Assembly: GCF_000526375.1 (NCBI RefSeq)
Contig: NZ_JAFY01000001.1
Coordinates: forward strand, 62,001 to 126,000
DNA: 64,000 nucleotides
Origin: Aminiphilus circumscriptus DSM 16581
Lineage (GTDB): Bacteria > Synergistota > Synergistia > Synergistales > Aminiphilaceae
Direction of reading: 5' to 3'
The position numbers were made by a program, and so were the translations under genes. Numbering within the stretch: the first letter of the stretch is position 1; each line of letters opens with the position of its first letter. Positions 13,928-36,109 of the stretch are shown here, one piece after another. Under the pieces are notes generated by a model, which saw only the letters and a list, made by a program, of their open reading frames with translations, was not told the DNA's origin and searched no databases.

Positions 13928-14547
13928 GGCTTGGCCTCCTTTTTTTCAAGAATTTCCAAGAACGGCAACGAGCGTCCGTGACACCCTTCTGTTCGAATTA
14001 TACCTTAAGAAGCGGAGCCGGAAGAACGGTGTCTCCGCCGCTCCTTGGTGCCGCCGCGCGTGCGCCCCTCGTTCCGCCTTTCCGGCGGCGAAGAGGGCTC
14101 TGTGTCGTGCTGCGCATGACGGTGCATGAGCAAAAAGGTGAAAAGAGGGGCTTTTTCGACCGCCGAGAGACGCAAAGGCGCTGCCGTTGCTTTTGACAGC
14201 TTCGATGTCGTTCTGTCATTGTGGAGTAGCATGAAAAAGAGTTAAAAGAAAAAACGCCGATGTCCGGTCGCATCGTTCCTCGGATCGTCGTTTTTTTCGA
14301 GGTGACGCTCTCTTTCCGGTTTTTCCTCTCTTTTCGGAGTGCAAACTCCATGCGTGCGGCAAGGTCGCGGCATGGGGGAACGGCAGTGACGCACGGAGCT
14401 GCCGAGGGCGAAACGGGAACCTGCGGGGAACGATTCCGCAGGGACAGGTGTGTCGTGTGCTGTCGGTGTGGAATGGAATGTGTTGCCTGGAGTGTGTCTG
14501 CGGAGCGGGTGATCCTTGTCGGGATCGCCCGGGAAGGGAGATGGGGA
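13928..14547. other. Intergenic region between divergent genes
   Basis: 620 bp with no convincing gene. It carries the leftward promoter at 13997-14026. A TTGACA near 14197 could serve the rightward CTERM gene, but no good -10 follows at 17 bp. Confidence 0.5.
13997..14026 (-). promoter_or_regulatory. Promoter of antitoxin/Doc unit
   Basis: On the minus strand TTCTTC, 18 bp, TATAAT (perfect -10 at 13997-14002). Transcription would begin about 65 bp before the 54-aa gene. Confidence 0.6.
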
Positions 14548-16341
14548 ATGCGGCGTTCGGTTCGTCCCGGTGTGCTGTGCGTTCTTTGCGGTGTCGTGGC
14601 GATGCTGTTTTTTGGCGCAGGGGCGCCGTGTGGTCCCTGTGAGGCCTCGGGGCCCCAGGGACTCGGGTCCCCCTATCTGATCGACCCCGCGAGCGGGGAC
14701 GGCAGCTTCATCGTCGTGCACAAACCCCAGGCCGGGGCCTGCCTGGCCGCCGGAGGATGGGAGGCGGTGCGCTACTTCGCGGATGGAACGCGGGACACGA
14801 GCTTCGTCTGTGCCAGCCCCGACGTGTGCCGCACCTCCGGTGGAGGCGGCGGCGGGGCTGCGGGGAGCCGGGGCCTCGGGGACGCGACACCGCCTCTTGG
14901 TTCCGCCGTGGACGGAGTACGGGGGGAATACTACCTCCTCCGCACCGACGCCATTTATCTCCACGATCTGGAGACCGGCGAATCCAACGGCAAGCTGGCG
15001 CTTCCCTCCGCGGGAGATGGATTCGCCGCGCCGCCGAAGAGCATGGCCAGTGGAGGCTCCCCTCCCGGAGGTTCACGCCTTTTCTTTGTGGTGGATGCCA
15101 ACGGTGCCGTCTGGAAATGGCAGTTCAACATCAGCGACGACGTGAACTGGACCAAGATCTCCGACAAGCCCGCAGGGACAATGACAAACCCGAAGCGGGT
15201 AGGGGGCAACGCCGCCGACACGGGGGCCAAGCCCTACCTGGTGTTCACGTCGGGTTCTTCGGGGAGCTGGGCCAGCCAGGTCTACATGCACGATGGCTCG
15301 AACTGGACCTTGAAGGGGGAGACGTCGTCCCCGTTCAACCGTTCCCTGGACGGCATCGCCGTGGGGAGCACGGGGCTCGTGTACACGACGGACACGGAGA
15401 ACAACAAGATCGTCCGCTTCGGAACGGGGGATCCGACGAGCGGAACGGTGTTCGCCGGCACGTCCACCTGGTGCGAGGGAATCACCTATCATCCCGGCTC
15501 GGGGCGGATTCTCGTGACCGGAACAGGGGACGGCAAGGTGTACCAGTACGACCTCAGCGGAAACCTCGTCTCCTGGGGAGCCGCTCCCTCCGCGACACCG
15601 TCGCCGACGGCATCTCCCACGGCATCTCCGTCGCCGACGCCGTCCGTCTCGCCCACACCGTCTTCTTCACCCTCCGCGACGCCGTCTCCCTCGGCCTCAC
15701 CGTCACCGTCGGTGTCGCCGCTGCCCACGCCGTCGGATCTTCTGGAGCCCACGCCCGTGCTGGAGGGAGGGTCCTGGGTGACGAGTCCCACGCCCATTCC
15801 CGAGGGGCTCCGCGTCCTCGAAGGGGCGCTGCCGAAGGGGTTTGTCTTTCCGCAGTGGTTCCTGTGGCTGATTCTGGGTAACACTATCGACGCCGACGGC
15901 GTGCAGGTCGTGCAGGTGGGCGAGGCGTGGGAGATACGCCTGAAAATGCTGGACGATGCAAAAGAGTTCAAGGTCGTCCTCGATTCGGAGAGGGACGAGC
16001 AGGGAGGCGTGTCCTACCGCTGGTCGCTCTTCTTCTGGAACAACGAGACGGGGCAGTGGGAGGCGGGAGTGGGTGACGAGGCGGAGAGCCCGGAGAGCCG
16101 CGGGTTCGTCGCCCGGGACACGCAGCTCGAATGGACCTTCGAGGACGGCGGTTCTTTCGACCTCGATGGCGTGCAGGATGGATTCGTCTCGCTCCGTCGG
16201 GCGTCGGTGTTGCTCGGTGCCCCCGTCGCCGCCACGGGAACACCCGAGGGTGGAGGCGGGTCGGGGTGCGGCATTTCCTCGGTCTCGCTTCCGGCGGCAC
16301 TGCTGCTGGCGCCGCTTCTGTTCCTGTTCCGGCGCTTCTGA
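14548..16341 (+). CDS. Synergist-CTERM surface protein with propeller-like region
   Basis: A 597-residue secreted protein. The signal peptide is at about 1-30 ([19 protein letters not shown]). Residues about 50-350 contain repeated segments such as [36 protein letters not shown] and [17 protein letters not shown], reminiscent of beta-propeller blades. A Ser/Pro/Thr linker of PSPTASP units follows, then a beta-rich domain ([14 protein letters not shown] to [15 protein letters not shown]). The C-terminus ([13 protein letters not shown], a hydrophobic helix, FRRF) is the Synergist-CTERM sorting signal, which presumably directs cleavage and surface anchoring. The start at 14548 follows GGGAAGGGAG and precedes the signal peptide directly; the longer open frame upstream is not needed. 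The ligand is unknown. Confidence 0.85.
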
Positions 16342-20216: not shown

Positions 20217-23200
20217 TTAGCGCTGCAGCAGCAGGGCCAGCGGAACGACCAGAAGGAGCAGCACGGGAAGCGCGCCGCCGAAGACGCCGTTTCCGCCCCC
20301 CGTCCCGGTGTCGCATCCGCCGCCGCCACCTCCGCCCGTGCCGGTGGGCCCGCCCGTGGGCGCCTCGCCCCGGACCACTTCCACCACCGCGGCGAGATTC
20401 GGCAGAACGCGCCCCGCCTCAGGGTCGCCGTCGGTGGCCCCGCCGTCCGCAATGGCCACCCGCCAGGTCTCGGTGGTGGCGCTGCGGCGGAAGACCGACG
20501 TGCCCTCCTCCCGGGGCAGCACCGTGTACCCCGTGGGGTTGCCCTGGTCGTCGAAGGTGCGGGCCAGCAGGAACACCGTTGACGAATACCCCTCCGCCAT
20601 CGCTCCCGTGGTGACCTCCAGCAGCAGGACCAGCTCCGTGACGCCCGGATCGAGCTGGGCCAGAACGGAGAAGAAACGCACCAGGTCCAGGTTGTACTCT
20701 CCCGCCGCAATGGCATCGGGGTCGAACGCAAGCACCTGTGAGAGAAGGGCGAAAGAGGCGAGAACCTCCTCAAGTGTTCCCGGATCCGTGATCTCCACAG
20801 GCCCCGCGAGAATCGTCCCTCCCGACAGGAGCGTCAGGGTGAGCGTCACCTCCGGCAGAGGGATGTCCGGGTCCGGCGAGGGGAAGGGCGACGGCGTGGG
20901 ACCGCCCGTCGGCGTGGGCGTCGGCCCCGAGGTGGGTGTTGCCGTCGGCTCCGTCGGTGTCACCGTCGGTGCTGCTGTGGGCGTCGGTGTCGCCGTCGGT
21001 CCGGAGGTGGCGTCGAAACTGGCGGCGATGGTGTGGTCCGCCGACACACCGAGGAACGTGTAGGTCGCTACGGCGCCGGCGGAGGCGCCGTCCACGGTGA
21101 CGTCGTCCACGGCGTAGCCCGCGTCGGGGGAAATGGTGAAGATCTTGTCCGAGCCCTCATGAACCGTCACACTTCCTGCGGGAGCAATGCTGCCCCCCGG
21201 GCCCGCCGAAGCGGTAATCGTCCAGGCCCGGATGAAACTGGCGGCGATGGTGTGGTCCGCCGACACGTCAAGGAACGTGTAGGTCGTTGCAGTGCCTGCG
21301 GAGACGCCGTCCACGGTCACGTCCGCCACGGTGTAGCCCGAGTCCGGGGTGACCGTGAAGGTCTGGTCCGCGCCGGGAAGGACAAACACGTTGCCAGCGG
21401 GAGCGATGATCCCGTTCGCGTCCGCCGAGGCGACGATGGTCCATTTCCTGGCGAAGCGGGCCGTGACGTGTTTGTCCTCGCTCATGGTCACGGTGGTCAC
21501 GGGATTCGTCCCCGAGGCGTCGCCGCTCCACTCCGCAAAGTACCAGGGGTTTACGGCGTCGGCGGAGAGGGTCACCGCCGTGCCCGCCGTGTACTCCCAG
21601 GTGGTGTCCGGCGTCAGCGTCGTGCCCGCGGGGTTCCGCGACACGGTTCCGTCACCCGAGACGGTGATGGAAAGGAGCTTGCCGAAGGTGTACTCGTAGG
21701 CGCCGATGTCCACGCCCGCGCCCTGGGGGCGGGACACGCCGCGCTGGTCCGTGGCGGGGGCGCCCGTCGCCGTGCCCGCGTTGACGGCGGAGCTGGCCGC
21801 GGAAATGGCGCAGGTCTTGGTCGTTCCGCCGTTGTCCGCCGGAGCGCCGAGGTTCGGATCGGTGAGGACGTTTCCTGTGCCCGCGTAGCCCCCCTGGACC
21901 ACACTGTAGGTCACGGTGGTGGTGTGTCCTCCTCCCGTGGAGATCTCTCCGTCGGAGACGTTCCAGAGGATGCAGTTCGTGGCGGTGACGGTGCCGCCCA
22001 TGTTGTGCAGACCCTTGCCGTTCGTTGCGGCGTTGCCCGCGAGAGTGCAGTTGACGAGAGACGTGGTGGCGCCGGAACTGCAGACGCCGCCGCCCTCGCC
22101 CGCGCTGTTGTTCGCGAAGGTGCAGTTGACGAAGGAGGACGTGCGGCCGACGTTGAACACACCGCCGCCGCTGTTGGTGACACTGTTTTCCGAGAAGGTG
22201 CAGCCCGTGACGGTGGAGGTGCCGGTGCCCGCGTTGTACATGCCGCCTCCGCCGCTGCCCGCGGCGGTGTTGCCCGTGAAGGTGCAGTTTGCGACGGTGG
22301 GGGTGCTGCCCTCCGTGTTGTGCATGCCGCCGCCGGTATCCGTTGCGGTATTTCCGGAGAAGGTGCAGTTTGTGACGGTGGGACTGCTGCTGCTGTAATT
22401 GTACATACCGCCGCCGTTTGCGGCGCTGTTGTTCGAAAAGGTGCAACTGCCGATATCCGGAGTGGCGCCGCTGCCGGTGTTGTACATGCCACCGCCGGCG
22501 CCTGTCGCAGTGTTTCCGGAAAAAGTGCAGTTTTCGATGACGGGGTTGTTGCCGTTGTTGTAGAGTCCACCACCGTTGGTGCCTGCATGGTTATTCAGAA
22601 AAGAGCAATTTGTGAGATGGGGGCTGCAACCGCTGTAGTTGCGCATGCCTCCGCCGTGGGTATTCGAACTGTTGCCTGAGAAGGTGCAGTTTGTGATGGC
22701 GGGATTGCTGTTGTTGCGATTGCACATGCCGCCGCTATAATTCGCTGCATTGCCGGAAAAAACACAGTTTTCGATGGTGGGGCTGCCACCATCGTTGATC
22801 ATGCCGCCCGCGTACCCGCTTGTTCTGCTGTCTCCGGCGGTGACGGTGAATCCGTCGAGGACAGTGGTGGACGTGGTGCCGCTGCCCGTGACCACGGTTT
22901 TGCTGTTGGTGCCGACGATCTGGCCGACGGTGGAGGTGACGCCGTTCACCTTGCCCGTGTCGTCGTTCGCCAGGTCTCCCGTGAGGACCGTGACGTTGGC
23001 GCTCGGGTTTCTGTCTGCGCGGGCCGTCTCGGTGCCAAAAAAGCCACCGTAGAGGGCGACGCCGTCCTTGAGGGTGAAGGTGGCTTCTTGCTCGGTGGTG
23101 GTGACGCTTGACGGATCTGCGGGAATTACAGGGCGGTAGGCTCCCTTGGCGACCCAGAACTCGTCCCCCGCGTCGGCGCTCTGGATGGCGGCGGGGAACT

Positions 23201-23411
23201 CCGCCTCGCCGAAGGCGTTTGCCCAGCTCGATCCGTTTTTTGCTCCCGCGCCGCCCGGCGTGACGTACTTCACCGCCGCCTCGGCGGCGGAACCGGAAAG
23301 GGCGGATACCGGAAGACCGGTCATGCCGAGACCGAGAGAAAAGAGCAGCGTCAGCACGCCGCCGAGAAGTGTGAAGGCCGCCTTTTTCGGGAAGGAGGTG
23401 CTGTGGTTCAT
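20217..23411 (-). CDS. Beta-helix surface protein A, Synergist-CTERM anchored
   Basis: A 1064-residue secreted protein, most likely a surface adhesin or passenger-type protein. The signal peptide is within residues 1-45 (AAFTLLGGVLTLLFSLGLGM). Eleven beta-helix coils follow the pattern GGGMxN...NCTFSGN, the Chlamydia Pmp-type GGA[ILV]/FxxN repeat. The choice-of-anchor Q segment (TDQRGVSRPQGAGVDIGAYEY) comes next. Three divergent InlB-type/bacterial repeat domains follow (YFAEWSGDASG; FTVTPDSGYTVADVTVDG; FTISPDAGYAVDDVTVDG), then a Thr/Pro linker, a ~150-residue conserved domain and the Synergist-CTERM tail (GGGGGGGCDTG, helix, LLLQR). Its 5' end and upstream DNA match paralogue B and its 3' two-thirds match paralogue C, so it is a mosaic. 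The start at 23411 directly precedes the signal peptide; an open extension upstream is non-coding leader. Confidence 0.88.
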   Translation of the reverse strand: MNHSTSFPKKAAFTLLGGVLTLLFSLGLGMTGLPVSALSGSAAEAAVKYVTPGGAGAKNGSSWANAFGEAEFPAAIQSADAGDEFWVAKGAYRPVIPADPSSVTTTEQEATFTLKDGVALYGGFFGTETARADRNPSANVTVLTGDLANDDTGKVNGVTSTVGQIVGTNSKTVVTGSGTTSTTVLDGFTVTAGDSRTSGYAGGMINDGGSPTIENCVFSGNAANYSGGMCNRNNSNPAITNCTFSGNSSNTHGGGMRNYSGCSPHLTNCSFLNNHAGTNGGGLYNNGNNPVIENCTFSGNTATGAGGGMYNTGSGATPDIGSCTFSNNSAANGGGMYNYSSSSPTVTNCTFSGNTATDTGGGMHNTEGSTPTVANCTFTGNTAAGSGGGGMYNAGTGTSTVTGCTFSENSVTNSGGGVFNVGRTSSFVNCTFANNSAGEGGGVCSSGATTSLVNCTLAGNAATNGKGLHNMGGTVTATNCILWNVSDGEISTGGGHTTTVTYSVVQGGYAGTGNVLTDPNLGAPADNGGTTKTCAISAASSAVNAGTATGAPATDQRGVSRPQGAGVDIGAYEYTFGKLLSITVSGDGTVSRNPAGTTLTPDTTWEYTAGTAVTLSADAVNPWYFAEWSGDASGTNPVTTVTMSEDKHVTARFARKWTIVASADANGIIAPAGNVFVLPGADQTFTVTPDSGYTVADVTVDGVSAGTATTYTFLDVSADHTIAASFIRAWTITASAGPGGSIAPAGSVTVHEGSDKIFTISPDAGYAVDDVTVDGASAGAVATYTFLGVSADHTIAASFDATSGPTATPTPTAAPTVTPTEPTATPTSGPTPTPTGGPTPSPFPSPDPDIPLPEVTLTLTLLSGGTILAGPVEITDPGTLEEVLASFALLSQVLAFDPDAIAAGEYNLDLVRFFSVLAQLDPGVTELVLLLEVTTGAMAEGYSSTVFLLARTFDDQGNPTGYTVLPREEGTSVFRRSATTETWRVAIADGGATDGDPEAGRVLPNLAAVVEVVRGEAPTGGPTGTGGGGGGGCDTGTGGGNGVFGGALPVLLLLVVPLALLLQR

Positions 23412-23619
23412 GGTTTTTTCTTCCTTTCCTCTTCGTCTGGATGGCTCTTCGGGGCGCTTTCGGCTCGAAGAGCCATGCGTGCTGCAATGAAAGAACGAGC
23501 GACGATGCGAACGAACGGCTTCCTCGCTTTCGGAAATGCCCGGTGCATGACTCCCTTGTGCGGGAAAAGGCGGTTGCCCTTGTTCTATGCATAACGATGT
23601 CTCGATTGAACCAAATTGG

Positions 23620-23651
23620 AATATACACCTTGACACGCTGTCAATGTCAAG
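23620..23651 (-). promoter_or_regulatory. Shared dyad promoter of surface gene A
   Basis: Minus strand: TTGACA (-35), a 19-bp spacer, TATATT (-10 at 23620-23625). The dyad CTTGACA-N9-TGTCAAG (23629-23651) covers the -35 and most of the spacer. The same layout occurs at four other genes in this window. A long spacer with a dyad is typical of MerR-type activation (inference). The leader is about 205 nt. Confidence 0.75.
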
Positions 23652-23816
23652 GAGGAGATCAAAATTTCTGTCACATGACATTCAGGAGAATTCAAAAAGA
23701 AACGCAAAAACGGAGTGTCCGCATGGTTGAGAACAGTACGTCGTGGACACGAAGGCGAGGAAGAACGGGGAGGTGTCCGTTCGGTTTGAAAGCCGGCGGT
23801 GCAGTCGAAAAGAGTG

Positions 23817-23841
23817 GCGCCGGGACAAACCGTCCCGGCGC
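23817..23841 (-). terminator. Terminator of surface gene B
   Basis: A 10-bp stem GCGCCGGGAC/GTCCCGGCGC. On the minus strand it is followed by CACTCTTTTCG. It lies about 40 bp past the stop of gene B. Confidence 0.75.
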
Positions 23842-23878
23842 GCTTGTCTGATCGCCTGTGTGTGGTGCGGTCGCTTCT

Positions 23879-26476
23879 TTAGCGCCTCAGCAGCAGAACC
23901 GTCGGAACGACCAGAAGGAGCAGCACGGGAAGCGCGCCGCCGAAGACGCCGTTTCCGCCGCCGGCTCCGGTGTCGCATCCGCCGCCGCCACCCGAGGGAG
24001 CCGCGGTGGGCGTGGCGCCAAATCCGGCCGCGACGACCACCGCGGCGAGGTTCGGCAGAACGCGTCCCGCCTCGGGGTCGCCGTCGGTCCCGCCGCCGTC
24101 GGCGACGGTCACCCGCCAGGTCTCCGCTGCGGCGCTGCGGCGGAAGACGGAGGACCCCTCCTCGCGGGGCACCACCTCGAAGCCCGTGGGGTTTCCCTGG
24201 CCGTCGAAGGTGCGGGCCAGCAGAAAGACCGTCGCCGGATAGCCTGGGGCGGGCTCTCCCATGGAGATCTCCACGAGGAGCGTCAGCTCCGTTATGCCCG
24301 GGTCCAACTGGGCGAGCAGGGAGAAGAAGCGCACCATGTCCAGGTTGTACTGCCCCGCCGAAACGGCGTCGGGGTCGAAGCCCAGCACCTGCGCGAGCAG
24401 GGCAGGGGAGGCGAGGAGCGCCTCCGGCTCGTCCGGGTCCGTGATCTCCGTCGGTCCCGCGAGGACCGTTCCCCCCGACACGAGGGTGAGGGTGAGCGTC
24501 ACCGGCGGCAGGGGAATGTCCGGGTTGGGGGCGGGAAAGGGCGAGGGCGTTGGGCCGTCCGTGGGCGAGGGCGTCCCGGTGGGCGATGGAGGAGAGGTGG
24601 GGGCGGGAGTTCCCGTCGGTTCCGGAGCGGGCGTCGGGTTGGCGGTGAAGGTGGCGGCGATGGTGTGGTCCGCCGACACGCCGAGGAAGGTGTAGGTCGC
24701 GGCGGCGCCGGCGGAGGCGCCGTCCACGGTCACGTCGGCGATGGTATGGCCCGCGTCGGGGGTGACGGTGAAGCTCTGGTCCGCGCTGGGAAGGATGAAA
24801 ACATTGCCCGCGGGAGCGATGGCCCCTCCCGTGCCCGCCGAGGCGGTGATGGTCCATTTCCGGGCGAAGCGGGCCGTGACGCGTTTGTCCCCGCTCATGG
24901 TCACGGTGATCACGGGGTCCGTCCCCGAGATATCGCCGCTCCATGCGACGAAATACCAGGATGCGGCGGCGTCGGCGGAAAGGGCCACTCCGTCGCCCGT
25001 GTCGTAGGACCACTGGTTGCTCCACGTGCCGAAGGGAGTTCCTCCGGGCGTTTGCGTCACCGTCCCTGAGCCCTCGGTCTCCACGGCGAGGACCTGTTTC
25101 CCCGCCCAGTACTCGTAGGCGCCCATGTCGAAGCTCGCGCCCTGGGGGCGGGATGCGCCGCGCTGGTCTGCGGTGGGGGCGCCCGTAGCCGTTCCCGCGC
25201 CGAAGGCGGCGCTGTCGCCGGAGATGGCCATGGTCTCGGTGACGCCGCCGTGCCATGCCAGGGAGTCGAGCATCGGGTCGGCGGTGGTGTTCCCCGTGCC
25301 GGCCACGTCGGTGACGGAGTAGGTGACGACGGGCGACGAACCGGATACGTTGACGATCTGGCCTCCGGTGCCGCCGGTGCCCCAGAAGATGCAGTTGGTG
25401 ACTGTCGGGCTGCTGAGGGCGTTGTATATGCCGCCGCCGCTGCTGGCGGCGGCGTTTCCCGAGAAGGTGCAGTTGATGACGGTGGGGCTGCTCACGCTGT
25501 TGTATATGCCGCCGCCGTAGGAGCCGGCGGTGTTTCCCGAGAAGGTGCAGTTGGTGGCTGCCGGGCTGCTGCTGGAATTGAGCATGCCGCCGCCGTAGGT
25601 GGCGTTGTTTCCTGCGAAGGTGCAGTCGGTGACTGCCGGGCTGCTGCCGTTGTAGTTGCACATGCCGCCGCCGACGTTGGTGGTGTTTCCCGCGAAGGTA
25701 CAGTTGGTGACTGTCGGGCTGCTCCCGTTGTTGAACATGCCGCCGCCCTGGGCTCCGGCGCTGTTTCCCGAGAAGGTACAGTCGGTGACGGTCGGGCTGC
25801 TGCCGGTGTTATACATGCCGCCGCCGGCGGTGGCGGTGTTTCCCGAGAAGGTGCAGTTGGTGACGGTCGGGCTGCCGTTGCTGCTGTACATGCCGCCGCC
25901 GTTGCCTCCCGTGCCGCCGCTTCCCGCGGTGACGGTGAAACCGTCGAGCACGGTGGCTGACGTGGTGCCGCTGCCCGTGACCACGGTCCAGCTGTTGGTG
26001 CCGACGATCTGGCCGGCGCTGACGGTGACGCCGTTCACCTTGCCCGCATCGTCGTTCGCCAGGTCTCCCGTGAGGACCGTGACGTTGGTTTTCCAGTTCC
26101 GGCCGCCGCGGGTCGTCTCCGTGCCCGCGAAGCCGCCGTAGAGGGCAACGCCGTTTTTGAGGGTGAAGGTGGCGGCGGTGGCGTTCGTCACAGAGGGGCG
26201 GTAGGCTCCTGCGGCGACCCAGAACTCGTCCCCCGCGTCGGCGCTTTGGATGGCGGCGGGAAGCTCCGCCTCGCCGTAGGCGTTGTCCCAGCTCGAGCCG
26301 TCCTTCGCTCCCGCGCCGCCCGGCGTGACGTACTTCACCGCCGCCTCGGCGGCGGAACCGGAAAGGGCGGATACCGGAAGACCGGTCATGCCGAGACCGA
26401 GAGAAAAGAGCAGCGTCAGCACGCCGCCGAGAAGTGTGAAGGCCGCCTTTTTCGGGAAGGAGGTGCTGTGGTTCAT
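23879..26476 (-). CDS. Beta-helix surface protein B, Synergist-CTERM anchored
   Basis: An 865-residue paralogue of protein A with the same order: signal peptide, seven GGGMxN/NCTFSGN beta-helix coils (fewest of the four), choice-of-anchor Q segment (DQRGASRPQGASFDMGAYEY), two InlB-type repeat domains, Pro/Thr/Ser linker, the conserved pre-anchor domain and a Synergist-CTERM tail (GGGGGCDTGAGG, helix, LLLRR). The first ~65 residues and about 465 bp of upstream DNA are almost identical to those of gene A, differing by single bases. The start at 26476 precedes the signal peptide (MNHSTSFPKKAAF). It is probably exported and anchored at the envelope; a binding partner cannot be inferred. Coil number differs among the paralogues, as expected from slippage or recombination. 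Confidence 0.88.
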   Translation of the reverse strand: MNHSTSFPKKAAFTLLGGVLTLLFSLGLGMTGLPVSALSGSAAEAAVKYVTPGGAGAKDGSSWDNAYGEAELPAAIQSADAGDEFWVAAGAYRPSVTNATAATFTLKNGVALYGGFAGTETTRGGRNWKTNVTVLTGDLANDDAGKVNGVTVSAGQIVGTNSWTVVTGSGTTSATVLDGFTVTAGSGGTGGNGGGMYSSNGSPTVTNCTFSGNTATAGGGMYNTGSSPTVTDCTFSGNSAGAQGGGMFNNGSSPTVTNCTFAGNTTNVGGGMCNYNGSSPAVTDCTFAGNNATYGGGMLNSSSSPAATNCTFSGNTAGSYGGGIYNSVSSPTVINCTFSGNAAASSGGGIYNALSSPTVTNCIFWGTGGTGGQIVNVSGSSPVVTYSVTDVAGTGNTTADPMLDSLAWHGGVTETMAISGDSAAFGAGTATGAPTADQRGASRPQGASFDMGAYEYWAGKQVLAVETEGSGTVTQTPGGTPFGTWSNQWSYDTGDGVALSADAAASWYFVAWSGDISGTDPVITVTMSGDKRVTARFARKWTITASAGTGGAIAPAGNVFILPSADQSFTVTPDAGHTIADVTVDGASAGAAATYTFLGVSADHTIAATFTANPTPAPEPTGTPAPTSPPSPTGTPSPTDGPTPSPFPAPNPDIPLPPVTLTLTLVSGGTVLAGPTEITDPDEPEALLASPALLAQVLGFDPDAVSAGQYNLDMVRFFSLLAQLDPGITELTLLVEISMGEPAPGYPATVFLLARTFDGQGNPTGFEVVPREEGSSVFRRSAAAETWRVTVADGGGTDGDPEAGRVLPNLAAVVVAAGFGATPTAAPSGGGGGCDTGAGGGNGVFGGALPVLLLLVVPTVLLLRR

Positions 26477-26684
26477 GGTTTTTTCTTCCTTTCCTCTTCG
26501 TCTGGATGGCTCTTCGGGGCGCTTTCGGCTCGAAGAGCCATGCGTGCTGCAATGAAAGAACGAGCGACGATGCGAACGAACGGCTTCCTCGCTTTCGGAA
26601 ATGCCCGGTGCATGACTCCCTTGTGCGGGAAAAGGCGGTTGCCCTTGTTCTATGCATAACGATGTCTCGATTGAACCAAGTTGG

Positions 26685-26716
26685 AATATACACCTTGACA
26701 CGCTGTCAATGTCAAG
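26685..26716 (-). promoter_or_regulatory. Shared dyad promoter of surface gene B
   Basis: TTGACA, 19 bp, TATATT on the minus strand, with the CTTGACA-N9-TGTCAAG dyad at 26694-26716. Nearly identical to the promoter of gene A as part of a duplicated ~465-bp upstream region. Confidence 0.75.
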
Positions 26717-26881
26717 GAGGAGATCAAAATTTCTGTCACATGACATTCAGGAGAATTCAAAAAGAAACGCAAAAACGGAGTGTCCGCATGGTTGAGAACA
26801 GTACGTCGTGGACACGAAGGCGAGGAAGAACGGGGAGGTGTCCGTTCGGTTTGAAAGCCGGCGGCGCAGTCGAAAAAAGTG

Positions 26882-26906
26882 GCGCCGGGACAAACCGTCC
26901 CGGCGC
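26882..26906 (-). terminator. Terminator of surface gene C
   Basis: The same 10-bp GCGCCGGGAC stem as at 23817, followed on the minus strand by CACTTTTTTCG. About 40 bp past the stop of gene C. Confidence 0.75.
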
Positions 26907-26943
26907 GCTTGTCTGATCGCCTGTGTGTGGTGCGGTCGCTTCT

Positions 26944-29900
26944 TTAGCGCCTCAGCAGCAGGGCCAGCGGACCGGCCAGAAGGAGCAGCACGGGAAGCGC
27001 GCCGCCGAAGACGCCGTTTCCGCCCCCCGCTCCGATGTCGCATCCGCCGCCACCGCCACCGCCGCCGCCTGTGGGTGCCTCGCCCCGGACCACTTCCACC
27101 ACCGCGGCGAGATTCGGCAGAACGCGCCCCGCCTCGGGAGCGCCGTCGGTGGCCCCGCCGTCCGCAATGGCCACCCGCCAGGTCTCGGTGGTGGCGCTGC
27201 GGCGGAAGACCGACGTGCCCTCCTCCCGGGGCAGCACCGTGTACCCCGTGGGGTTGCCCTGGTCGTCGAAGGTGCGGGCCAGCAGGAACACCGTTGACGA
27301 ATACCCCTCCGCCATCGCTCCCGTGGTGACCTCCAGCAGCAGGACCAGCTCCGTGACGCCCGGATCGAGCTGGGCCAGAACGGAGAAGAAACGCACCAGG
27401 TCCAGGTTGTACTCTCCCGCCGCAATGGCATCGGGGTCGAACGCAAGCACCTGTGAGAGAAGGGCGAAAGAGGCGAGAACCTCCTCAAGTGTCCCCGGAT
27501 CCGTGATCTCCACAGGCCCCGCGAGAATCGTCCCTCCCGACAGGAGCGTCAGGGTGAGCGTCACCTCCGGCAGAGGGATGTCCGGGTCCGGCGAGGGGAA
27601 GGGCGACGGCGTGGGACCGCCCGTCGGCGTGGGCGTCGGCCCCGAGGTGGGTGTTGCCGTTGGCTCCGTCGGTGTCACCGTCGGTGCTGCTGTGGGCGTC
27701 GGTGTCGCCGTCGGTCCGGAGGTGGCGTCGAAACTGGCGGCGATGGTGTGGTCCGCCGACACACCGAGGAACGTGTAGGTCGCTACGGCGCCGGCGGAGG
27801 CGCCGTCCACGGTGACGTCGTCCACGGCGTAGCCCGCGTCGGGGGAAATGGTGAAGATCTTGTCCGAGCCCTCATGAACCGTCACACTTCCTGCGGGAGC
27901 AATGCTGCCCCCCGGGCCCGCCGAAGCGGTAATCGTCCAGGCCCGGATGAAACTGGCGGCGATGGTGTGGTCCGCCGACACGTCAAGGAACGTGTAGGTC
28001 GTTGCAGTGCCTGCGGAGACGCCGTCCACGGTCACGTCCGCCACGGTGTAGCCCGAGTCCGGGGTGACCGTGAAGGTCTGGTCCGCGCCGGGAAGGACAA
28101 ACACGTTGCCAGCGGGAGCGATGATCCCGTTCGCGTCCGCCGAGGCGACGATGGTCCATTTCCTGGCGAAGCGGGCCGTGACGTGTTTGTCCTCGCTCAT
28201 GGTCACGGTGGTCACGGGATTCGTCCCCGAGGCGTCGCCGCTCCACTCCGCAAAGTACCAGGGGTTTACGGCGTCGGCGGAGAGGGTCACCGCCGTGCCC
28301 GCCGTGTACTCCCAGGTGGTGTCCGGCGTCAGCGTCGTGCCCGCGGGGTTCCGCGACACGGTTCCGTCACCCGAGACGGTGATGGAAAGGAGCTTGCCGA
28401 AGGTGTACTCGTAGGCGCCGATGTCCACGCCCGCGCCCTGGGGGCGGGACACGCCGCGCTGGTCCGTGGCGGGGGCGCCCGTCGCCGTGCCCGCGTTGAC
28501 GGCGGAGCTGGCCGCGGAAATGGCGCAGGTCTTGGTCGTTCCGCCGTTGTCCGCCGGAGCGCCGAGGTTCGGATCGGTGAGGACGTTTCCTGTGCCCGCG
28601 TAGCCCCCCTGGACCACACTGTAGGTCACGGTGGTGGTGTGTCCTCCTCCCGTGGAGATCTCTCCGTCGGAGACGTTCCAGAGGATGCAGTTCGTGGCGG
28701 TGACGGTGCCGCCCATGTTGTGCAGACCCTTGCCGTTCGTTGCGGCGTTGCCCGCGAGAGTGCAGTTGACGAGAGACGTGGTGGCGCCGGAACTGCAGAC
28801 GCCGCCGCCCTCGCCCGCGCTGTTGTTCGCGAAGGTGCAGTTGACGAAGGAGGACGTGCGGCCGACGTTGAACACACCGCCGCCGCTGTTGGTGACACTG
28901 TTTTCCGAGAAGGTGCAGCCCGTGACGGTGGAGGTGCCGGTGCCCGCGTTGTACATGCCGCCTCCGCCGCTGCCCGCGGCGGTGTTGCCCGTGAAGGTGC
29001 AGTTTGCGACGGTGGGGGTGCTGCCCTCCGTGTTGTGCATGCCGCCGCCGGTGTCCGTTGCGGTATTTCCGGAGAAGGTGCAGTTTGTGACGGTGGGACT
29101 GCTGCTGCTGTAATTGCACATACCGCCGCCGTTTGCGGCGCTGTTTCCTGAAAAGGTGCAGCCTGTGACGGAAGGGCTGCCGCCGCCGTTGTAGATGCCA
29201 CCGCCGACGTCGGAGGTGGCATTGTCCGCGAAGAGACAGTCGGTGACGGAAGGGCTGCTTCCGTCATTGAACATGCCGCTGCCGCCGCCCGTCGCAGTGT
29301 TCCCGGAGAATGTGCAGCCCGTGACGGTGGGACTGCCACTGCCGTTGTACATGCCACCGCCACCGCCGCCCGCGGCGTTGTTCCCCGTGAAGGCACAGTC
29401 CGTGACGGTGGAGGTACCGGTGCCTGCGTTGTGTAGACCGCCGCCGTAGCCACCCGTCGCGGTGTTCCCGGAGAAGACGCAGCCGGTGACGGTAAGGCTG
29501 CTGGTTCCGTCGCTGCCCATACCGCCGCCGCCGAAGCCGGTCCTGTTTCCCGAGAAGGTGCAGTTCGTGACGGTGGGGTTGCCGCTGTTGTTGTACATGC
29601 CACCGCCATAATCGGCGGTGTTCCCTGCAAAGGTGCAGTTGGTGATGGTGGGGCTGCCGCCGTTGTTGCGCATGCCGCCGCCGTCTCCCGTGCCCGTGTT
29701 GCTTCCGGCGGTGACGGTGAATCCGTCGAGCACGGTGGTGTCCGTGATGCTGTTGTCCGCCGTGACCACGGTTTTGCTGTTGGTGCCCTGTATCTGGTCG
29801 GCGCTGACGGTGACGCCGTTCACCTTGCCCGCATCGTCGTTCGCCAGGTCACCCGTGAGGACCGTGACGTTGGCGCTCGGGTTCCGGCCCGTGCGGGCTG

Positions 29901-30261
29901 TCTCGGTGCCCGCGAAGCCGCCGTAGAGGGCGACGCCGTTTTTGAGGGTGAAGGTGGCGTCGGCGTCGTTTGTCACAGCGGGGCGGTAGGCTCCTGCGGC
30001 GACCCAGAACTCGTCCCCCGCAGTGGCGCTCTGGATGGCGGCGGGGAACTCCGCCTCGCCGTAGGCGTTTGCCCAGCTCGATCCGTTTTTTGCTCCCGCG
30101 CCGCCCGGCGTGACGTACTTCACCGCCGCCTCGGCGGCGGAACCGGAAAGGGCGGATACCGGAAGACCGGTCATGCCGAGACCGAGAGAAAAGAGCAGCG
30201 TCAGCACGCCGCCGAGAAGTGTGAAGGCCGCCTTTTTCGGGAAGGAGGTGCCGCAGGTCAT
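26944..30261 (-). CDS. Beta-helix surface protein C, Synergist-CTERM anchored
   Basis: A 1105-residue paralogue, the longest of the four, with thirteen GGGMxN/NCTFSGN coils. It begins MTCGTSFPKKAAF, then the signal peptide shared with A and B. From the coil carrying GGGMHNTEGSTPTVANC to the C-terminus it is almost identical to protein A (about 2 kb of DNA with a handful of substitutions), including the choice-of-anchor Q segment, three InlB-type repeats, the Thr/Pro linker and the pre-anchor domain. The tail is a ten-Gly run, CDIGAGG, helix, LLLRR. Its leader differs from those of A and B but keeps the same promoter design. Envelope localisation is inferred from the signals; the function is unknown. 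Confidence 0.88.
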   Translation of the reverse strand: MTCGTSFPKKAAFTLLGGVLTLLFSLGLGMTGLPVSALSGSAAEAAVKYVTPGGAGAKNGSSWANAYGEAEFPAAIQSATAGDEFWVAAGAYRPAVTNDADATFTLKNGVALYGGFAGTETARTGRNPSANVTVLTGDLANDDAGKVNGVTVSADQIQGTNSKTVVTADNSITDTTVLDGFTVTAGSNTGTGDGGGMRNNGGSPTITNCTFAGNTADYGGGMYNNSGNPTVTNCTFSGNRTGFGGGGMGSDGTSSLTVTGCVFSGNTATGGYGGGLHNAGTGTSTVTDCAFTGNNAAGGGGGGMYNGSGSPTVTGCTFSGNTATGGGSGMFNDGSSPSVTDCLFADNATSDVGGGIYNGGGSPSVTGCTFSGNSAANGGGMCNYSSSSPTVTNCTFSGNTATDTGGGMHNTEGSTPTVANCTFTGNTAAGSGGGGMYNAGTGTSTVTGCTFSENSVTNSGGGVFNVGRTSSFVNCTFANNSAGEGGGVCSSGATTSLVNCTLAGNAATNGKGLHNMGGTVTATNCILWNVSDGEISTGGGHTTTVTYSVVQGGYAGTGNVLTDPNLGAPADNGGTTKTCAISAASSAVNAGTATGAPATDQRGVSRPQGAGVDIGAYEYTFGKLLSITVSGDGTVSRNPAGTTLTPDTTWEYTAGTAVTLSADAVNPWYFAEWSGDASGTNPVTTVTMSEDKHVTARFARKWTIVASADANGIIAPAGNVFVLPGADQTFTVTPDSGYTVADVTVDGVSAGTATTYTFLDVSADHTIAASFIRAWTITASAGPGGSIAPAGSVTVHEGSDKIFTISPDAGYAVDDVTVDGASAGAVATYTFLGVSADHTIAASFDATSGPTATPTPTAAPTVTPTEPTATPTSGPTPTPTGGPTPSPFPSPDPDIPLPEVTLTLTLLSGGTILAGPVEITDPGTLEEVLASFALLSQVLAFDPDAIAAGEYNLDLVRFFSVLAQLDPGVTELVLLLEVTTGAMAEGYSSTVFLLARTFDDQGNPTGYTVLPREEGTSVFRRSATTETWRVAIADGGATDGAPEAGRVLPNLAAVVEVVRGEAPTGGGGGGGGGCDIGAGGGNGVFGGALPVLLLLAGPLALLLRR

Positions 30262-30464
30262 GTGGTTCGCTTCCTTTCCTCTTCATACGCACGCTTTTCG
30301 GACCGGTTCCGGCTCGAAGAGCCGTGCGTGCTGCAATGAAGAACAAATGACGACGCAAAATGGCTTTCCCGCTTTCGGCCGTGCCCGGTGCGTGGCTCCG
30401 TTGTGCGGGAAAAGGCGGCTGTCCTTGCTCCATGTATAACGATGTCTCGATTGAGGCCGGTTGG

Positions 30465-30496
30465 ACTATACACCTTGACACTGGGTGAATGTCAAG
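30465..30496 (-). promoter_or_regulatory. Shared dyad promoter of surface gene C
   Basis: TTGACA, 19 bp, TATAGT on the minus strand. The dyad arms CTTGACA and TGTCAAG (30474-30496) are kept although the 9-bp centre differs from the other copies, which argues that the arms are under selection. Confidence 0.75.
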
Positions 30497-30933
30497 ATGC
30501 CTTTTGTGTAAAGCATTCGAAAGAAATGAAAAAAGGCGGCGCAGAAGACCGTGGACACGAGGGCGAAGGTGAAGGCAAAGGCAAGAGAAGAGGAAGAGCA
30601 CGGAGGGTGTGCTTCCATATCGAGCAGGCGACGACGCTCCGGGGCGTCCACAGGACGTCCCGCGCCATTTTCATGGCCTGTACTGTCGGGTTTCCTTGAA
30701 AGGCACCTTGTCGCGGCAAGAGTTTTTCTCCGGGGGGTGCTCTTTTCGCACCCCCCGGAGTGTCGGTCACGTCGAAGGCTGATGGAGTGCTTCGCAACGA
30801 AGGCGTTTCGCAACCAAAAGTACTTCACAGCGAAGATGCTTCAAGGGCCTTTCCTGGATTTCCGAAAGTTTCCTTTTCTCCGCGCTCCTTCCACCTCTTC
30901 TTCCTCTCGTCCGAGTACGCGTGGCCGTTTCTT

Positions 30934-33900
30934 CTAGCGCTGCAGCAGCAGGGCCAGCGGAACGGCCAGAAGGAGCAGCACGGGAAGCGCGCCGCCGAAG
31001 AAGCCGTTGCCGCCGCCGGCTCCGGTGTCGCATCCGCCGCCGCCACCGCCGCCGCCTGTGGGTGCCTCGCCCCGGACCACTTCCACCACCGCGGCGAGAT
31101 TCGGCAGAACGCGCCCCGCCTCGGGAGCGCCGTCGGTGGCCCCGCCGTCCGCAATGGCCACCCGCCAGGTCTCGTCGGTGGCGCTGCGGCGGAAGACCGA
31201 CGCGTCCTCCTCGCGGGGGAGAAGCGTGAATCCCGTGGGGTTGCCCTGATCGTCAAAGGTGCGGACCAGCAGAAAGACCGTCGCCGAATAGCCCGGAGAG
31301 ACGCCCCCCATGGAAATGTCCACGAGGAGCGTCAGCTCCGTTACGCCGGGATCGAGCTGCGCCAGGATGGAGAAAAGCTCCGATGCCTCCCGGTTGTACA
31401 TTCCCGCAGCGACCGCCTCGGGGGCGAAGTCGAAGAGTGCCTCGAGCAGGGAGGGAGCGTCGAAGAGACGTGTCAGGGCTTGCGGATCGGTGATGAACAC
31501 GGGTCCCGCGATGACCGTTCCCCCCGACACGAGGGTGAGGGTGAGGGTTATCTCGGGCAGGGGAATGCTCGGGTCCGGCGAAGGAAAGGGCGACGGCGTG
31601 GGACCGCCCGTCGGTGACGGCGTCGCCGTCGGGTCCGGCGGTGTCGGCGTCGCCGTGGGTGCGGCGGTGAAGGCGGCTTCGATGGTGTGGTTCGCCGTCA
31701 CGTTGGGGAACGTGTAGGTCGTTGCGCTTCCCATGGAGACACCGTCCACGGTGACGTCCGCCACGGCGTAGCCCGCGTCCGGAGTGACCGTGAAGGTCTG
31801 GTCCGTGCCCTCCGGCACCGTCACGTTTCCCGCGGGAGCGATGGTTCCGCCGGGGCCCGCCGAGGCGGTGATGGTCCAGCCCCGGACGAAGAGGGCGGTG
31901 ACGCGCTTGTCCCCGTTCATGGTCACGGTGGTCACGGGGTTCGTCCCCGAGACGTCACCACTCCATGCCGCGAAGGACCAGGGTGCGGTGGCGGCGGCTG
32001 TCAGGGTCACCATCGTGTTTGTGTCGTAGGACCACTGGTTGCCCTGTGTGCCGAAGGCACTTCCCGGGGATGTTCGCGTCACTGTTCCGGAGCCCTCGGT
32101 CTCCACGGCGAGAATCGCCTTTCCCGCCCAGTACTCGTAGGTGCCAATGTCCACGCCCGCGCCCTGGGGGCGGAAGACGCCGCGCTGGTCCGCGGAGAGG
32201 ACGGTGACAGTGGTTCCGCCGATGGTGTGCACTCCCGTGCCCAGCCCCGCATCGAGGGCGGAGCTGCCTGCGGGGAGGGCCATCGTCTCGGTGACGCCGC
32301 CGTGCCACGCCAGGGGGCCGAGATTCGGGTCGATGGTGATGATGTCCGTGCCCACGTAGCCACCCCGGACCACGCTGTGGGTCACGGTTGCGGAGCCGGA
32401 GCCCGTCTCGGAGATTTCGTCCGCGGCGGAGGCGTTCCAGAAGATGCAATTGGCGATCGTGGGACTGCTGTCCGTGTTGGCCATGCCGGCGCCCTCGCTC
32501 GCGGTGTTTCCGGAGAAGGTGCAGTTTGTGACGACGGCGTCGCTGCTGTCGTTGACCATGCCGCCGCCGTCGCAGGTGGTGGCGCTGTTCCCCGAGAAGG
32601 TGCAGTTGGTGACGATGGGGTTGCTGCTGAGGTTGACCATCCCGGCACCGCCATAGTCGGTCGCGGTGTTTCCGGAGAAGGTGCAGTTTGTGACGACGGC
32701 GTCGCTGCTGTCGTTGACCATGCCGCCGCCACCGCTCATGGCGGTGTTTCCTGAGAAGGTGCAGTCCGTGACGGTGACGACGGTGCCGTTCATGTTGACC
32801 ATGCCGCCGCCGTCCATCTCAGAAGCGGAATTTCGTGAAAAGACGGAGCCCGTTATCGTGACGGTGCTGTCCGAGTTGATCATGCCGCCACCACTGCTCA
32901 TGGCGCTGTTTCCTGAGAAGGTGCAGTCCGTGACGGTGACGACGGTGCAGCTCAGATTGACCATGCCGCCGCCGTCAGCCACAGGAGCGGAGTTTTGCGA
33001 AAAGACACAGTCCGTGGCGGTGACGGTGCTGCTCGCGTTGACCATGCCGCCCCCGCCGTAGAAGGCGCTGTTCCCCGTGAAGATGCAGCCCGCGACGGTG
33101 ACGGTGCTGTTCATGCTGAGCATGCCGCCGCCGAGGGTTGTGGAGGTGTTTTCCTCGAAGGTGCAGTCGGTGATTTTGGGGCTGCCGCCGTCCGTGACCA
33201 TGCCGCCGCCGTAGAGGGCGCTGTTCCCTGAGAAGGTGCAGTCGGTGATGGTGGGGCTGCCTCCGTCGTTGAAGATGCCGCCGCCGTAGGCCAGGAGAGT
33301 GGTGTTTCCCGCGAAGGTGCAATTGGTGATTTTGGGGCTGCCGTCCGTGTTGACCATGCCGCCGCCCTCTCCCGCGGTGTTTCTTCCGGCGGTGACGGTG
33401 AGACCGTCGAGTACGGTGCTGTCCGTGATGCTGCTGTCCGCCGTGACCACGGTTTTGCTGTTGATGCCCCGTATCTGGCCGGCGCTGAGGGTGACGCCGT
33501 TCACTTTGCCCACATCGTCGTTCGCCAGGTCACCCGTGAGAACCGTGACGTTGGCGCTCCAGTTCCGGTCCGCGCTGGCAGTTTCGGTGCCGGAAAAGCC
33601 GCCGTAGAGCGCCACGCCCTCCACAAGCTCGAAGGTGGCGTCGGCGTCGTTTGTCACCGAGGGGCGGTAGGCGCCCTTGGCGATCCAGAACTCGTCCCCC
33701 GCCGTGGCGCCCTGAATGGCGGCGGGGAGCTCCGCCTCGCCGAAGGCGTTGCCCCAGCTCGATCCGTCCCGTGCTCCCGCGCCGCCCTGCGTGACGTACT
33801 TCACCGCCGCTTCGGCGGAAGCGGTGCGGAAAACGCTGTGCCAATCCGGTGTTCCCACCCCGAGGCAGAGAAAAAGCGCCAGAAAAATTCCCGCAGCCAC

Positions 33901-33942
33901 GAATCTCATGTTTCCATAATGTGGATCTTCGCTGTGCTGCAT
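30934..33942 (-). CDS. Beta-helix surface protein D, Synergist-CTERM anchored
   Basis: A 1002-residue paralogue, the most diverged of the four. Its N-terminus is unrelated to A-C (signal helix MRFVAAGIFLALFLCLGVG after eleven residues) but joins the shared EAAVKYVTQGGAGARDGSSW. Twelve beta-helix coils follow, many using GGGMVN, with VTVTDCTFSGN units. Then come a choice-of-anchor Q segment, two InlB-type repeats, a short Thr/Pro linker, the pre-anchor domain (ITLTLTLVSGGTVIAGPV) and the Synergist-CTERM tail (GGGGGGGGCDTGAGG, helix, LLLQR). The ATG at 33942 is chosen for GAGGGAGAG seven bases upstream; the ATG at 33909 is an alternative. It is transcribed in the same direction as A-C and from the same promoter type. 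Confidence 0.87.
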   Translation of the reverse strand: MQHSEDPHYGNMRFVAAGIFLALFLCLGVGTPDWHSVFRTASAEAAVKYVTQGGAGARDGSSWGNAFGEAELPAAIQGATAGDEFWIAKGAYRPSVTNDADATFELVEGVALYGGFSGTETASADRNWSANVTVLTGDLANDDVGKVNGVTLSAGQIRGINSKTVVTADSSITDSTVLDGLTVTAGRNTAGEGGGMVNTDGSPKITNCTFAGNTTLLAYGGGIFNDGGSPTITDCTFSGNSALYGGGMVTDGGSPKITDCTFEENTSTTLGGGMLSMNSTVTVAGCIFTGNSAFYGGGGMVNASSTVTATDCVFSQNSAPVADGGGMVNLSCTVVTVTDCTFSGNSAMSSGGGMINSDSTVTITGSVFSRNSASEMDGGGMVNMNGTVVTVTDCTFSGNTAMSGGGGMVNDSSDAVVTNCTFSGNTATDYGGAGMVNLSSNPIVTNCTFSGNSATTCDGGGMVNDSSDAVVTNCTFSGNTASEGAGMANTDSSPTIANCIFWNASAADEISETGSGSATVTHSVVRGGYVGTDIITIDPNLGPLAWHGGVTETMALPAGSSALDAGLGTGVHTIGGTTVTVLSADQRGVFRPQGAGVDIGTYEYWAGKAILAVETEGSGTVTRTSPGSAFGTQGNQWSYDTNTMVTLTAAATAPWSFAAWSGDVSGTNPVTTVTMNGDKRVTALFVRGWTITASAGPGGTIAPAGNVTVPEGTDQTFTVTPDAGYAVADVTVDGVSMGSATTYTFPNVTANHTIEAAFTAAPTATPTPPDPTATPSPTGGPTPSPFPSPDPSIPLPEITLTLTLVSGGTVIAGPVFITDPQALTRLFDAPSLLEALFDFAPEAVAAGMYNREASELFSILAQLDPGVTELTLLVDISMGGVSPGYSATVFLLVRTFDDQGNPTGFTLLPREEDASVFRRSATDETWRVAIADGGATDGAPEAGRVLPNLAAVVEVVRGEAPTGGGGGGGGCDTGAGGGNGFFGGALPVLLLLAVPLALLLQR

Positions 33943-34030
33943 GCAGTATCTCTCCCTCGTCGTCGGTTGTGTGCGGGGTGTTTGCGTGCGCACTCCGCCC
34001 GGCAGTGCGATGCACTCCATTTCTTTGGAC

Positions 34031-34062
34031 ATGCTAAACCCTGACACGCTGTCAAGGTCAAG
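34031..34062 (-). promoter_or_regulatory. Shared dyad promoter of surface gene D
   Basis: TTGACC, 19 bp, TAGCAT on the minus strand. The dyad at 34040-34062 has one mismatch in each arm. The leader is about 80 nt. Confidence 0.68.
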
Positions 34063-34074
34063 GGCTTTTCCGCG

Positions 34075-34108
34075 AAAACAGCGCCCCCGTCGTCGGACGG
34101 GGGCGCTG
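34075..34108 (-). terminator. Terminator of DUF342 gene
   Basis: A 13-bp stem CAGCGCCCCCGTC/GACGGGGGCGCTG with a GTCG loop, followed by TTTT on the minus strand. It lies about 50 bp past the DUF342 stop and directly upstream of promoter D. Confidence 0.85.
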
Positions 34109-34158
34109 CCTGAATGTGCCTGCGCGGAGGTCTTGCGCTCTTGTGGGGACTGCGGTGT

Positions 34159-35904
34159 CTACCGGTACGAACCCATGGCGATGGAGCCCGTGTCGCTGTC
34201 GAACCGGAAGGAGACGAAGCGCAGCTCGTCCTTGATCTCCCGGCGGGTGCCGCGGATCTCCACGATGACGCCCGGGTGCAGCTTCTGCTTCACCTTGATG
34301 TAGCCGCCGCCCCGTATCTTTTGTTCCATGCTGTTCCGCAGGGCGGTCCGCTCGTCCTGCAGGTGGTGCAGCTCCCGGATGGAGGCGTTGTAGTGCTGGA
34401 TGAGCAGCTCCATCTTGGTCTGGATGTCCGGGGGAAGGACGATGCGGCCGTCCTTGACGAAGCGGGTGACGCTGCGCTTCATCACCTCGGAGATTTTCGC
34501 CGCCATTTCCTGAAGTTCCCGGATGCGCGCCTCCAGTGCCTCGATTCTCGCCCGGGTGCGGAAGTCGATGCCCGTTGCAAGAAGGGTGCGGGTGCCCATG
34601 GGAGTGCCCGCAGCGACGACGTCGATCCGCTCCAGGGCCACCACGGAGCCGCCGAGGACGCCCTTGTCGGAGCCGCGCCGTCCTTCGAGAATCACGCTCT
34701 TGCCGGAGTGGACCCGGGCGTGCATGAGATGGGACTTGGCGATCACTTCTTCGTCGGCGGCAACGATGCCGCCTTCCATGAAGCGCATGGTCACCTTGCC
34801 TCCGGCGTCGATGTCGCTTGTCTCGCCCAGGATGCCCCCGTGGATGTGCACGTCCCGCCCGGCCTTGATGGAGGCGGACTCCACGTTGCCGAAGACCTCC
34901 ACGTCCACTCCGGCGCTGACGAGAAATCCCTCGCGCACGTGGCCCCGGACGATGATGCTGCCGTCGAAGAGCACGTTGCCCACGCTCAGATCCACGTCGC
35001 CGCGCACCACCACCACGGGCTTGACCAGGAGGCGGTTGCCCCGGAACATGGGCTGCCCCGTGGTGGCGGCCGTGAAGAATTTGCCGTCCTCGGAGGCGAC
35101 GCCGTCTCCCATGGTGAGGGGTGATTTGGGCGGGGCGGGGACCTCGATGACGTTGCCGAAGATGTCCCGTCCCGGTTCGCCCGGAATGGCGGGTTCAAGG
35201 ATGGCGAGCAGCTCCCCCGTCTCGACGGAGAAGATCTCTCCCTTGTCCCGGTAGTCTACCTTCGCCTCGGCGTGTTCCATGCGGGGCGGCCTGCGTCCTT
35301 CCAGGGGAAAGAGAATTTCGAGGCGCGCCTCCCGGGGAAATTGTGGGGGAATGCCCTCGGCGGCGACCACCCGGCGCTGGATCTCCCCGGTGGTGTTGCA
35401 GAGGTGCACTCCCTCGGAGAGGCTCTCCTCGGCGATCTCCTTGATGCCCATTTCCAGGAGATGGTCGCAGATGGCCGCATAATCCAGCGTTTTGCCGCCT
35501 CCCGAGGCGGGGTAGAGATCCACCAGTGCCTTGAGGCGGTCCTTGGAGACCTGCACGTCGAAGGTGGCGTCCACGGGCTTGACCGTGCCGTCGCTCTCGA
35601 CGGCGGCCACGTCCATTTCGGAGAGGAGTTTGTCGATGCCCGCCTCGAGAAACAGTTCGGCCCGGCTTTTCTCGCTCTCTCCGGCGTCGGGGGCGTTTTC
35701 GCCTGCAGGAGTGCCGGAGGCCCGGTCGAAGAGAAGGTCTGCGGGAGTTTCGGAGAACATGTCGAAGGTCGGGGAGCCCGGCGTTCCTTCACCCGCGTCT
35801 GTTTTCGCCTGTTTCGCCGGCTGTTCCGCGAACATCCCGGCGTCGTCCGTCGTTTCCCCGTCGCCGCATGTTTCCTTGTTGCGGGGTTTCAGCACGTCGT
35901 TCAT
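34159..35904 (-). CDS. DUF342 / FapA-family polymerising beta-solenoid protein
   Basis: A 581-residue DUF342 protein. The N-terminal ~110 residues are acidic and variable. A conserved domain (LYPASGGGKTLDYAAICDHLLEMG) leads to the FapA beta-solenoid (VVVRGDVDLSVGNVLFDGSIIV to GGKVTMRFMEGGIVA), rich in GDV/GNV turns. A coiled coil (ARIEALEARIRELQEMAAKI) and a C-terminal basic beta region follow. Family members are cytoplasmic and have been linked to polar or flagellar assembly and to sensing; no flagellar gene is adjacent here. The start at 35904 has AAAGGA nine bases upstream. It shares its promoter design with the four surface genes downstream, suggesting co-regulation, and has its own strong terminator. 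Confidence 0.9.
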   Translation of the reverse strand: MNDVLKPRNKETCGDGETTDDAGMFAEQPAKQAKTDAGEGTPGSPTFDMFSETPADLLFDRASGTPAGENAPDAGESEKSRAELFLEAGIDKLLSEMDVAAVESDGTVKPVDATFDVQVSKDRLKALVDLYPASGGGKTLDYAAICDHLLEMGIKEIAEESLSEGVHLCNTTGEIQRRVVAAEGIPPQFPREARLEILFPLEGRRPPRMEHAEAKVDYRDKGEIFSVETGELLAILEPAIPGEPGRDIFGNVIEVPAPPKSPLTMGDGVASEDGKFFTAATTGQPMFRGNRLLVKPVVVVRGDVDLSVGNVLFDGSIIVRGHVREGFLVSAGVDVEVFGNVESASIKAGRDVHIHGGILGETSDIDAGGKVTMRFMEGGIVAADEEVIAKSHLMHARVHSGKSVILEGRRGSDKGVLGGSVVALERIDVVAAGTPMGTRTLLATGIDFRTRARIEALEARIRELQEMAAKISEVMKRSVTRFVKDGRIVLPPDIQTKMELLIQHYNASIRELHHLQDERTALRNSMEQKIRGGGYIKVKQKLHPGVIVEIRGTRREIKDELRFVSFRFDSDTGSIAMGSYR

Positions 35905-36077
35905 GACGCATCGTCCTTTCGGGGGTTCTCTCTTGGGCGTCGTGCCGCACCGCACCGCATCGCGTCGTCGCGCTGCCTGCGCCGTTACGCTCTCCCGGGG
36001 GCATGCCGCCAGGCCTGAGAGAACGTGTCTCCGGGTTTATGGGAGAAGGGACCGGAGTCACGCCCTCCTTTCGGACA

Positions 36078-36109
36078 AGGATAAACGTTGACACGCTGTC
36101 AATGTCAAG
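36078..36109 (-). promoter_or_regulatory. Shared dyad promoter of DUF342 gene
   Basis: TTGACA, 19 bp, TATCCT on the minus strand. The dyad region at 36087-36109 has the same centre as copies A, B and D. The leader is about 165 nt. Confidence 0.72.

Follow-up and report, generated by a model that had tools for sequence, protein, structure and literature searches.

As a rule, a MerR regulator acts on a single gene or a few genes close to its own, and two such proteins, TipAL and AlbA, are sensors of peptide antibiotics with their own class of ligand domain. EcmrR bends and under-twists a 19-bp promoter spacer, which makes the spacer usable by RNA polymerase (PMC8113463). TipAL and AlbA are described as autoregulated MerR proteins tied to peptide ligands (PMC7762955, PMC10189885). 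The literature searched does not describe a MerR operator preceding Nif11/NHLP–NHLM clusters, or a link between MerR and NHLM.

Here we describe promoters of this kind in Synergistota, among them five in a 64,000-nucleotide stretch of Aminiphilus circumscriptus DSM 16581 (contig NZ_JAFY01000001.1, positions 62,001 to 126,000; hereafter the window). The system resembles those of BmrR and EcmrR in its 19-bp spacer, in the pseudo-palindrome between −35 and −10, and in regulators that join an N-terminal MerR helix-turn-helix (HTH) to a C-terminal GyrI-like domain; the nearest solved relative is EcmrR. It differs from them in its operator arms, ACA-N3-TGT rather than CCC/GGG-type, in the number of sites, which reaches 16 per genome, and in its targets, with peptides and surface proteins in place of multidrug efflux. 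It also differs in the coupling of merR to a partner protein, and in one regulator that lacks GyrI. Unlike TipAL and AlbA, the regulators here usually carry a GyrI-like C-terminal domain, and the regulon appears to make and export peptides. We consider it very likely that the boxes are MerR-type promoters of a peptide, export and surface-protein regulon whose regulator and peptide arm are undetected in the genome of the window. In this reading the operator, its distribution, gene adjacency, domain content and the absence are taken from sequence; what we infer is that the operator is bound and the promoters activated, which ligand is involved, and how the promoters stand in A. circumscriptus.

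Promoter boxes and genes in the window

The preliminary description had reported five minus-strand boxes with exactly 19 bp between −35 and −10, and all five were recovered where it had placed them (Table 1). The full pattern is expected 0.00 times by chance in the window (100 shuffles). The genome-wide motif search that the description had proposed, run with up to two mismatches over the window's own genome (G000; 3.22 Mb in 7 contigs, rated 99.9% complete), returned these five places only. Across the same genome the inner dyad TTGACA-N3-TGTCAA is exact at sites A, B and E alone, and site D carries one mismatch. At every site the distance between the sigma-70 −35 and −10 elements falls within the 19 to 20 bp of MerR promoters. 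These features support an assignment of the boxes as putative sigma-70 promoters of MerR type. The MerR reading proposed earlier is correct in kind.

Table 1. Promoter boxes and the genes behind them, in window positions.
Feature	Position (strand)	Length	Elements or product	Operator palindrome	Remark
Site A	23620..23650 (-)		-35 TTGACA 23645-23650, 19-bp spacer, -10 TATATT 23620-23625	23627-23647	
Site B	26685..26715 (-)		identical to site A	26692-26712	
Site C	30465..30495 (-)		TTGACA / TATAGT	30472-30492	inner arm degenerate
Site D	34031..34061 (-)		TTGACC / TAGCAT	34038-34058	identical in sister genome G001
Site E	36078..36108 (-)		TTGACA / TATCCT	36085-36105	identical in sister genome G001
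Gene A	20217..23411 (-)	1064 aa	beta-helix, choice-of-anchor Q, InlB-type repeats		GGGGC-hydrophobic-R C-terminal tail
Gene B	23879..26476 (-)	865 aa	choice-of-anchor Q, InlB-type repeat		tail as gene A
Gene C	26944..30261 (-)	1105 aa	beta-helix surface protein		tail as gene A
Gene D	30934..33942 (-)	about 1002 aa	beta-helix surface protein, PMP-like repeats		tail as gene A
Gene E	34159..35904 (-)	581 aa	FapA (DUF342) N-terminal region + beta-solenoid		

By eye, the C-terminal tails of genes A to D resemble those of Synerg-CTERM proteins; the corresponding profile (TIGR04564) gave no match above cut-off in proteins A, B and D. A plus-strand ORF at 14230-16338 of the window ends in a similar GGGGSGC-hydrophobic-R tail but lacks an operator site; a tail of this type is therefore not enough to place a gene in the regulon.

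Operator geometry, distribution and targets in Synergistota

A dyad CTTGACA-N9-TGTCAAG had been proposed for all five copies. The palindrome is real, but it had been misplaced, its left arm being the −35 hexamer reused; the proposed form is broken in site D and one base off in site E. Over 61 sites from nine genomes, pairing about box column 14 (spacer base 8) reached 7.7 of 10 pairs, as against just 5.3 of 10 about column 11, the centre that the earlier dyad implies. The palindrome thus lies near the middle of the spacer, and the higher pairing at column 14 defines the operator, as read from these alignments, as the 21-bp palindrome ACYYTSACA-CNG-TGTSARRGT, almost entirely within the 19-bp spacer.

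The consensus pattern occurs at 58 sites in nine carriers among 188 Synergistota genomes, and the reversed pattern, used as a control, gave 0 matches in the same 188 genomes. When the −10 requirement was dropped, all 52 matches were already among the 58 sites; every −35 with dyad therefore has a −10 at the same distance.

Some sites, at contig ends or with no convincing ORF, and contig C62 of G082, were left without a downstream assignment. Of the sites that could be read, most lie ahead of genes for double-glycine peptides, Nif11/NHLP leaders, tailoring or export functions, or beta-helix proteins of the Synerg-CTERM type, so the connection to surface and envelope genes suggested by the preliminary description extends beyond the window to its Synergistota relatives. 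The targets there also include an asparagine-synthase-like protein, a YcaO protein and an NHLM-type exporter, and further targets are a MinC-like protein, a GGDEF protein and FapA. The double-glycine peptides form a family of about 50 aa, ending GG-EGMxxG, that was found in seven of the nine carriers and in a single further genome, where the match was weak. Curated cut-offs were exceeded in relatives by leaders of TIGR03798 and TIGR03793 and by the exporter TIGR03796, and Synerg-CTERM (TIGR04564) scored above cut-off in the regulon proteins L058, L048 and L069. Nif11-type RiPP precursors, recognized by the TIGR03798 leader, are encoded in G001 and G055; this leader has 10 matches in the sister genome G001 and 0 in G000. 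Such Nif11/NHLP and NHLM export clusters occur in relatives, whereas the cluster is absent from G000.

Two observations concern individual genomes. G082 has 12 Nif11 leader matches overall, several of them in tandem near operator sites at L047 and L050 (contigs C63 and C72). In G077, the double-glycine peptide matches L066 and L064 each contain a stop codon (TGA, TAG), and these copies are possibly decayed.

Cognate regulator, partner protein and proposed mechanism

A MerR-family gene adjoins a site in six carriers (G001, G055, G082, G083, G077 and G015). A profile of this cognate MerR exceeded 190 bits in these six of the nine carriers and in 0 of 179 noncarriers, and reached no more than 137 bits in any genome outside the six, so that its presence tracks carriage of the sites (Fisher p about 1.5e-9). 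The remaining carriers, G000, G023 and G079, yielded no cognate MerR; G079 is fragmentary, and G000 and G023 are near-complete. Three of the regulator proteins were scanned against Pfam. Those of L021 and L019 passed the cut-offs for both the MerR HTH (PF13411) and the GyrI-like domain (PF06445), whereas the G015 protein (L024) has the MerR domain without GyrI; GyrI therefore cannot be the sole sensor.

Exactly the same six genomes encode a partner protein of roughly 90 aa, which has no Pfam family and is predicted to fold into three helices (mean pLDDT 79, pTM 0.47). In four genomes its stop codon and the start of merR share 4 bp, and in another the overlap is 8 bp; G001 has the two genes separated. 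The apparent translational coupling of partner and merR behind an operator copy, in five of the six carriers, suggests autoregulation. We speculate that the partner, present even where GyrI is lacking, is a candidate sensor or signal.

Beyond Synergistota, the promoter was sought in one genome per GTDB species, which gave 65 usable loci among the matches listed. At 49 of these 65, a MerR HTH ORF lies within 600 bp of the promoter, mostly within 50 bp, and the three non-Synergistota regulators checked among these matches all have MerR and GyrI-like domains. Nearly all regulators beside this operator carry RM in the recognition helix. Seven more distant MerR–GyrI homologues from Synergistota carry KA, KT or KV instead, and for four of those with a recognizable promoter the adjacent dyad is of CCC/GGG type in the same arrangement. 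This correlation between helix and arms supports MerR as the likely binder of the operator, and it offers a testable pairing of RM versus KA/KT with ACA/TGT versus CCC/GGG. One contig filed under a Phycisphaerales MAG and one from a Synergistales MAG (L153/L158) have identical sequences, which probably reflects a binning error.

The proposed mechanism begins with a −35 and a −10 that would be held too far apart by the 19-bp spacer carrying the 21-bp palindrome. In the relatives, a dimeric MerR activator with the helix SxRMLR, usually fused to GyrI, very probably binds this operator. On receiving its trigger, the activator would distort the spacer by bending and under-twisting it, in the manner of EcmrR and BmrR, and turn on the genes for double-glycine, Nif11 and NHLP peptides, for tailoring and export, and for surface proteins of the Synerg-CTERM type. 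Without the activator, promoters with a 19-bp spacer should be weak.

A MerR-type operator at up to 16 places per genome would bring ribosomal peptides, the machinery that exports them and a surface-protein family together in a single regulon, and it gives Synergistota, a poorly studied phylum, a computable operator. The regulon also provides a candidate peptide signal. We can envisage a Synergistota peptide-signalling circuit in which the signal, either the GG-EGMxxG double-glycine peptides or the AAG-ended partner, leaves through the NHLM transporter and is detected by MerR together with its coupled partner, which then induces more peptide genes and the Synerg-CTERM coat, with the lineage of the window having kept the response genes only; as a whole, we regard this scheme as rather unlikely.

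Probable orphan promoters and competing explanations

The preliminary description had noted that the window holds no MerR gene, and the same is true of the whole genome: neither PF13411 nor the cognate-regulator profile detected a MerR-family gene in G000. Searches of G000 for a C39 exporter peptidase, a Nif11 leader, the partner and a double-glycine peptide were likewise negative, in contrast to G001, which has all four and the cognate MerR. The idea in the preliminary description that a single MerR regulator controls the five genes thus holds for the class of promoter and for the type of regulator, a merR gene lying beside sites in relatives and in other phyla, but not for resident control in a genome rated 99.9% complete. 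The five promoters look orphaned, by loss or by an assembly gap, and we favour loss. The window probably represents the surface-protein and FapA arm of the regulon, with promoters that, barring a regulator cluster hidden in an assembly gap, persist as remnants of low activity or without control, and would thus be a case of promoters seemingly outliving their regulator.

The cognate MerR, partner and peptide cluster could instead lie in a gap among the 7 contigs, leaving the regulon intact. In G001 the cluster takes up one entire contig of 43.7 kb with many repeated genes for Nif11 and surface proteins, merR standing about 250 bp from the contig end; this is a type of region that breaks assemblies. 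G000 and G001 do not differ at sites D and E. The intergenic DNA around D and E is, however, also 92 to 99% identical between G000 and G001, so conservation of the sites is no proof of current function, and we discarded this comparison as an argument for selection on D and E. A search for synteny between the window region and the peptide cluster of G001 matched contig C60 alone and did not locate an insertion or deletion point. An assembly gap also has to be set against the completeness of G000, which has no trace of other sites, a Nif11 leader, a C39 peptidase, the partner or a double-glycine peptide, and against the near-complete carrier G023, which likewise keeps a site without a cognate regulator. 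We therefore judge an intact regulon hidden in a gap somewhat unlikely.

Two further explanations would dispense with MerR. A non-MerR repressor of A. circumscriptus might bind the dyad, which would accord with the lack of a detectable MerR gene in G000 and with a palindrome that overlaps the −35 and the spacer; elsewhere, however, the same box adjoins MerR genes, and every site retains the 19-bp spacer, for which a repressor would have no use, making this very improbable. Alternatively, the five boxes might be functionless, one ancestral sequence copied along with its genes. In line with copying, A and B are 100% identical across the box and 60 bp upstream, site C shares its downstream leader with both, and genes A, B and C are mosaic copies. 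By contrast, D and E match A at 80 to 87% inside the 31-bp box and at 13 to 36% outside it. As judged from these alignments, the five copies are not independent events: A, B and C are partly duplicates, and the flanks of D and E are unrelated. The unrelated flanks largely refute functionless copying; E, moreover, drives an unrelated gene, and the box recurs at a fixed −10 distance before unrelated genes in nine genomes, which leaves this explanation scarcely credible.

Gene A is itself composite. Its first 0.87 kb is closest to gene B (unit A 1-868 versus B 1-844, 91% identity), and 2.3 kb of its 3′ part is 97.8% identical to gene C, which suggests recombination among the beta-helix surface genes; the mosaic of gene A and its promoter region lies within 20217-30545 of the window. 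Perfect GC-rich hairpins (GCGCCGGGACAAACCGTCCCGGCGC) stand between the surface genes at 23817-23841 and 26882-26906, upstream of sites A and B, and are possible terminators separating the transcription units.
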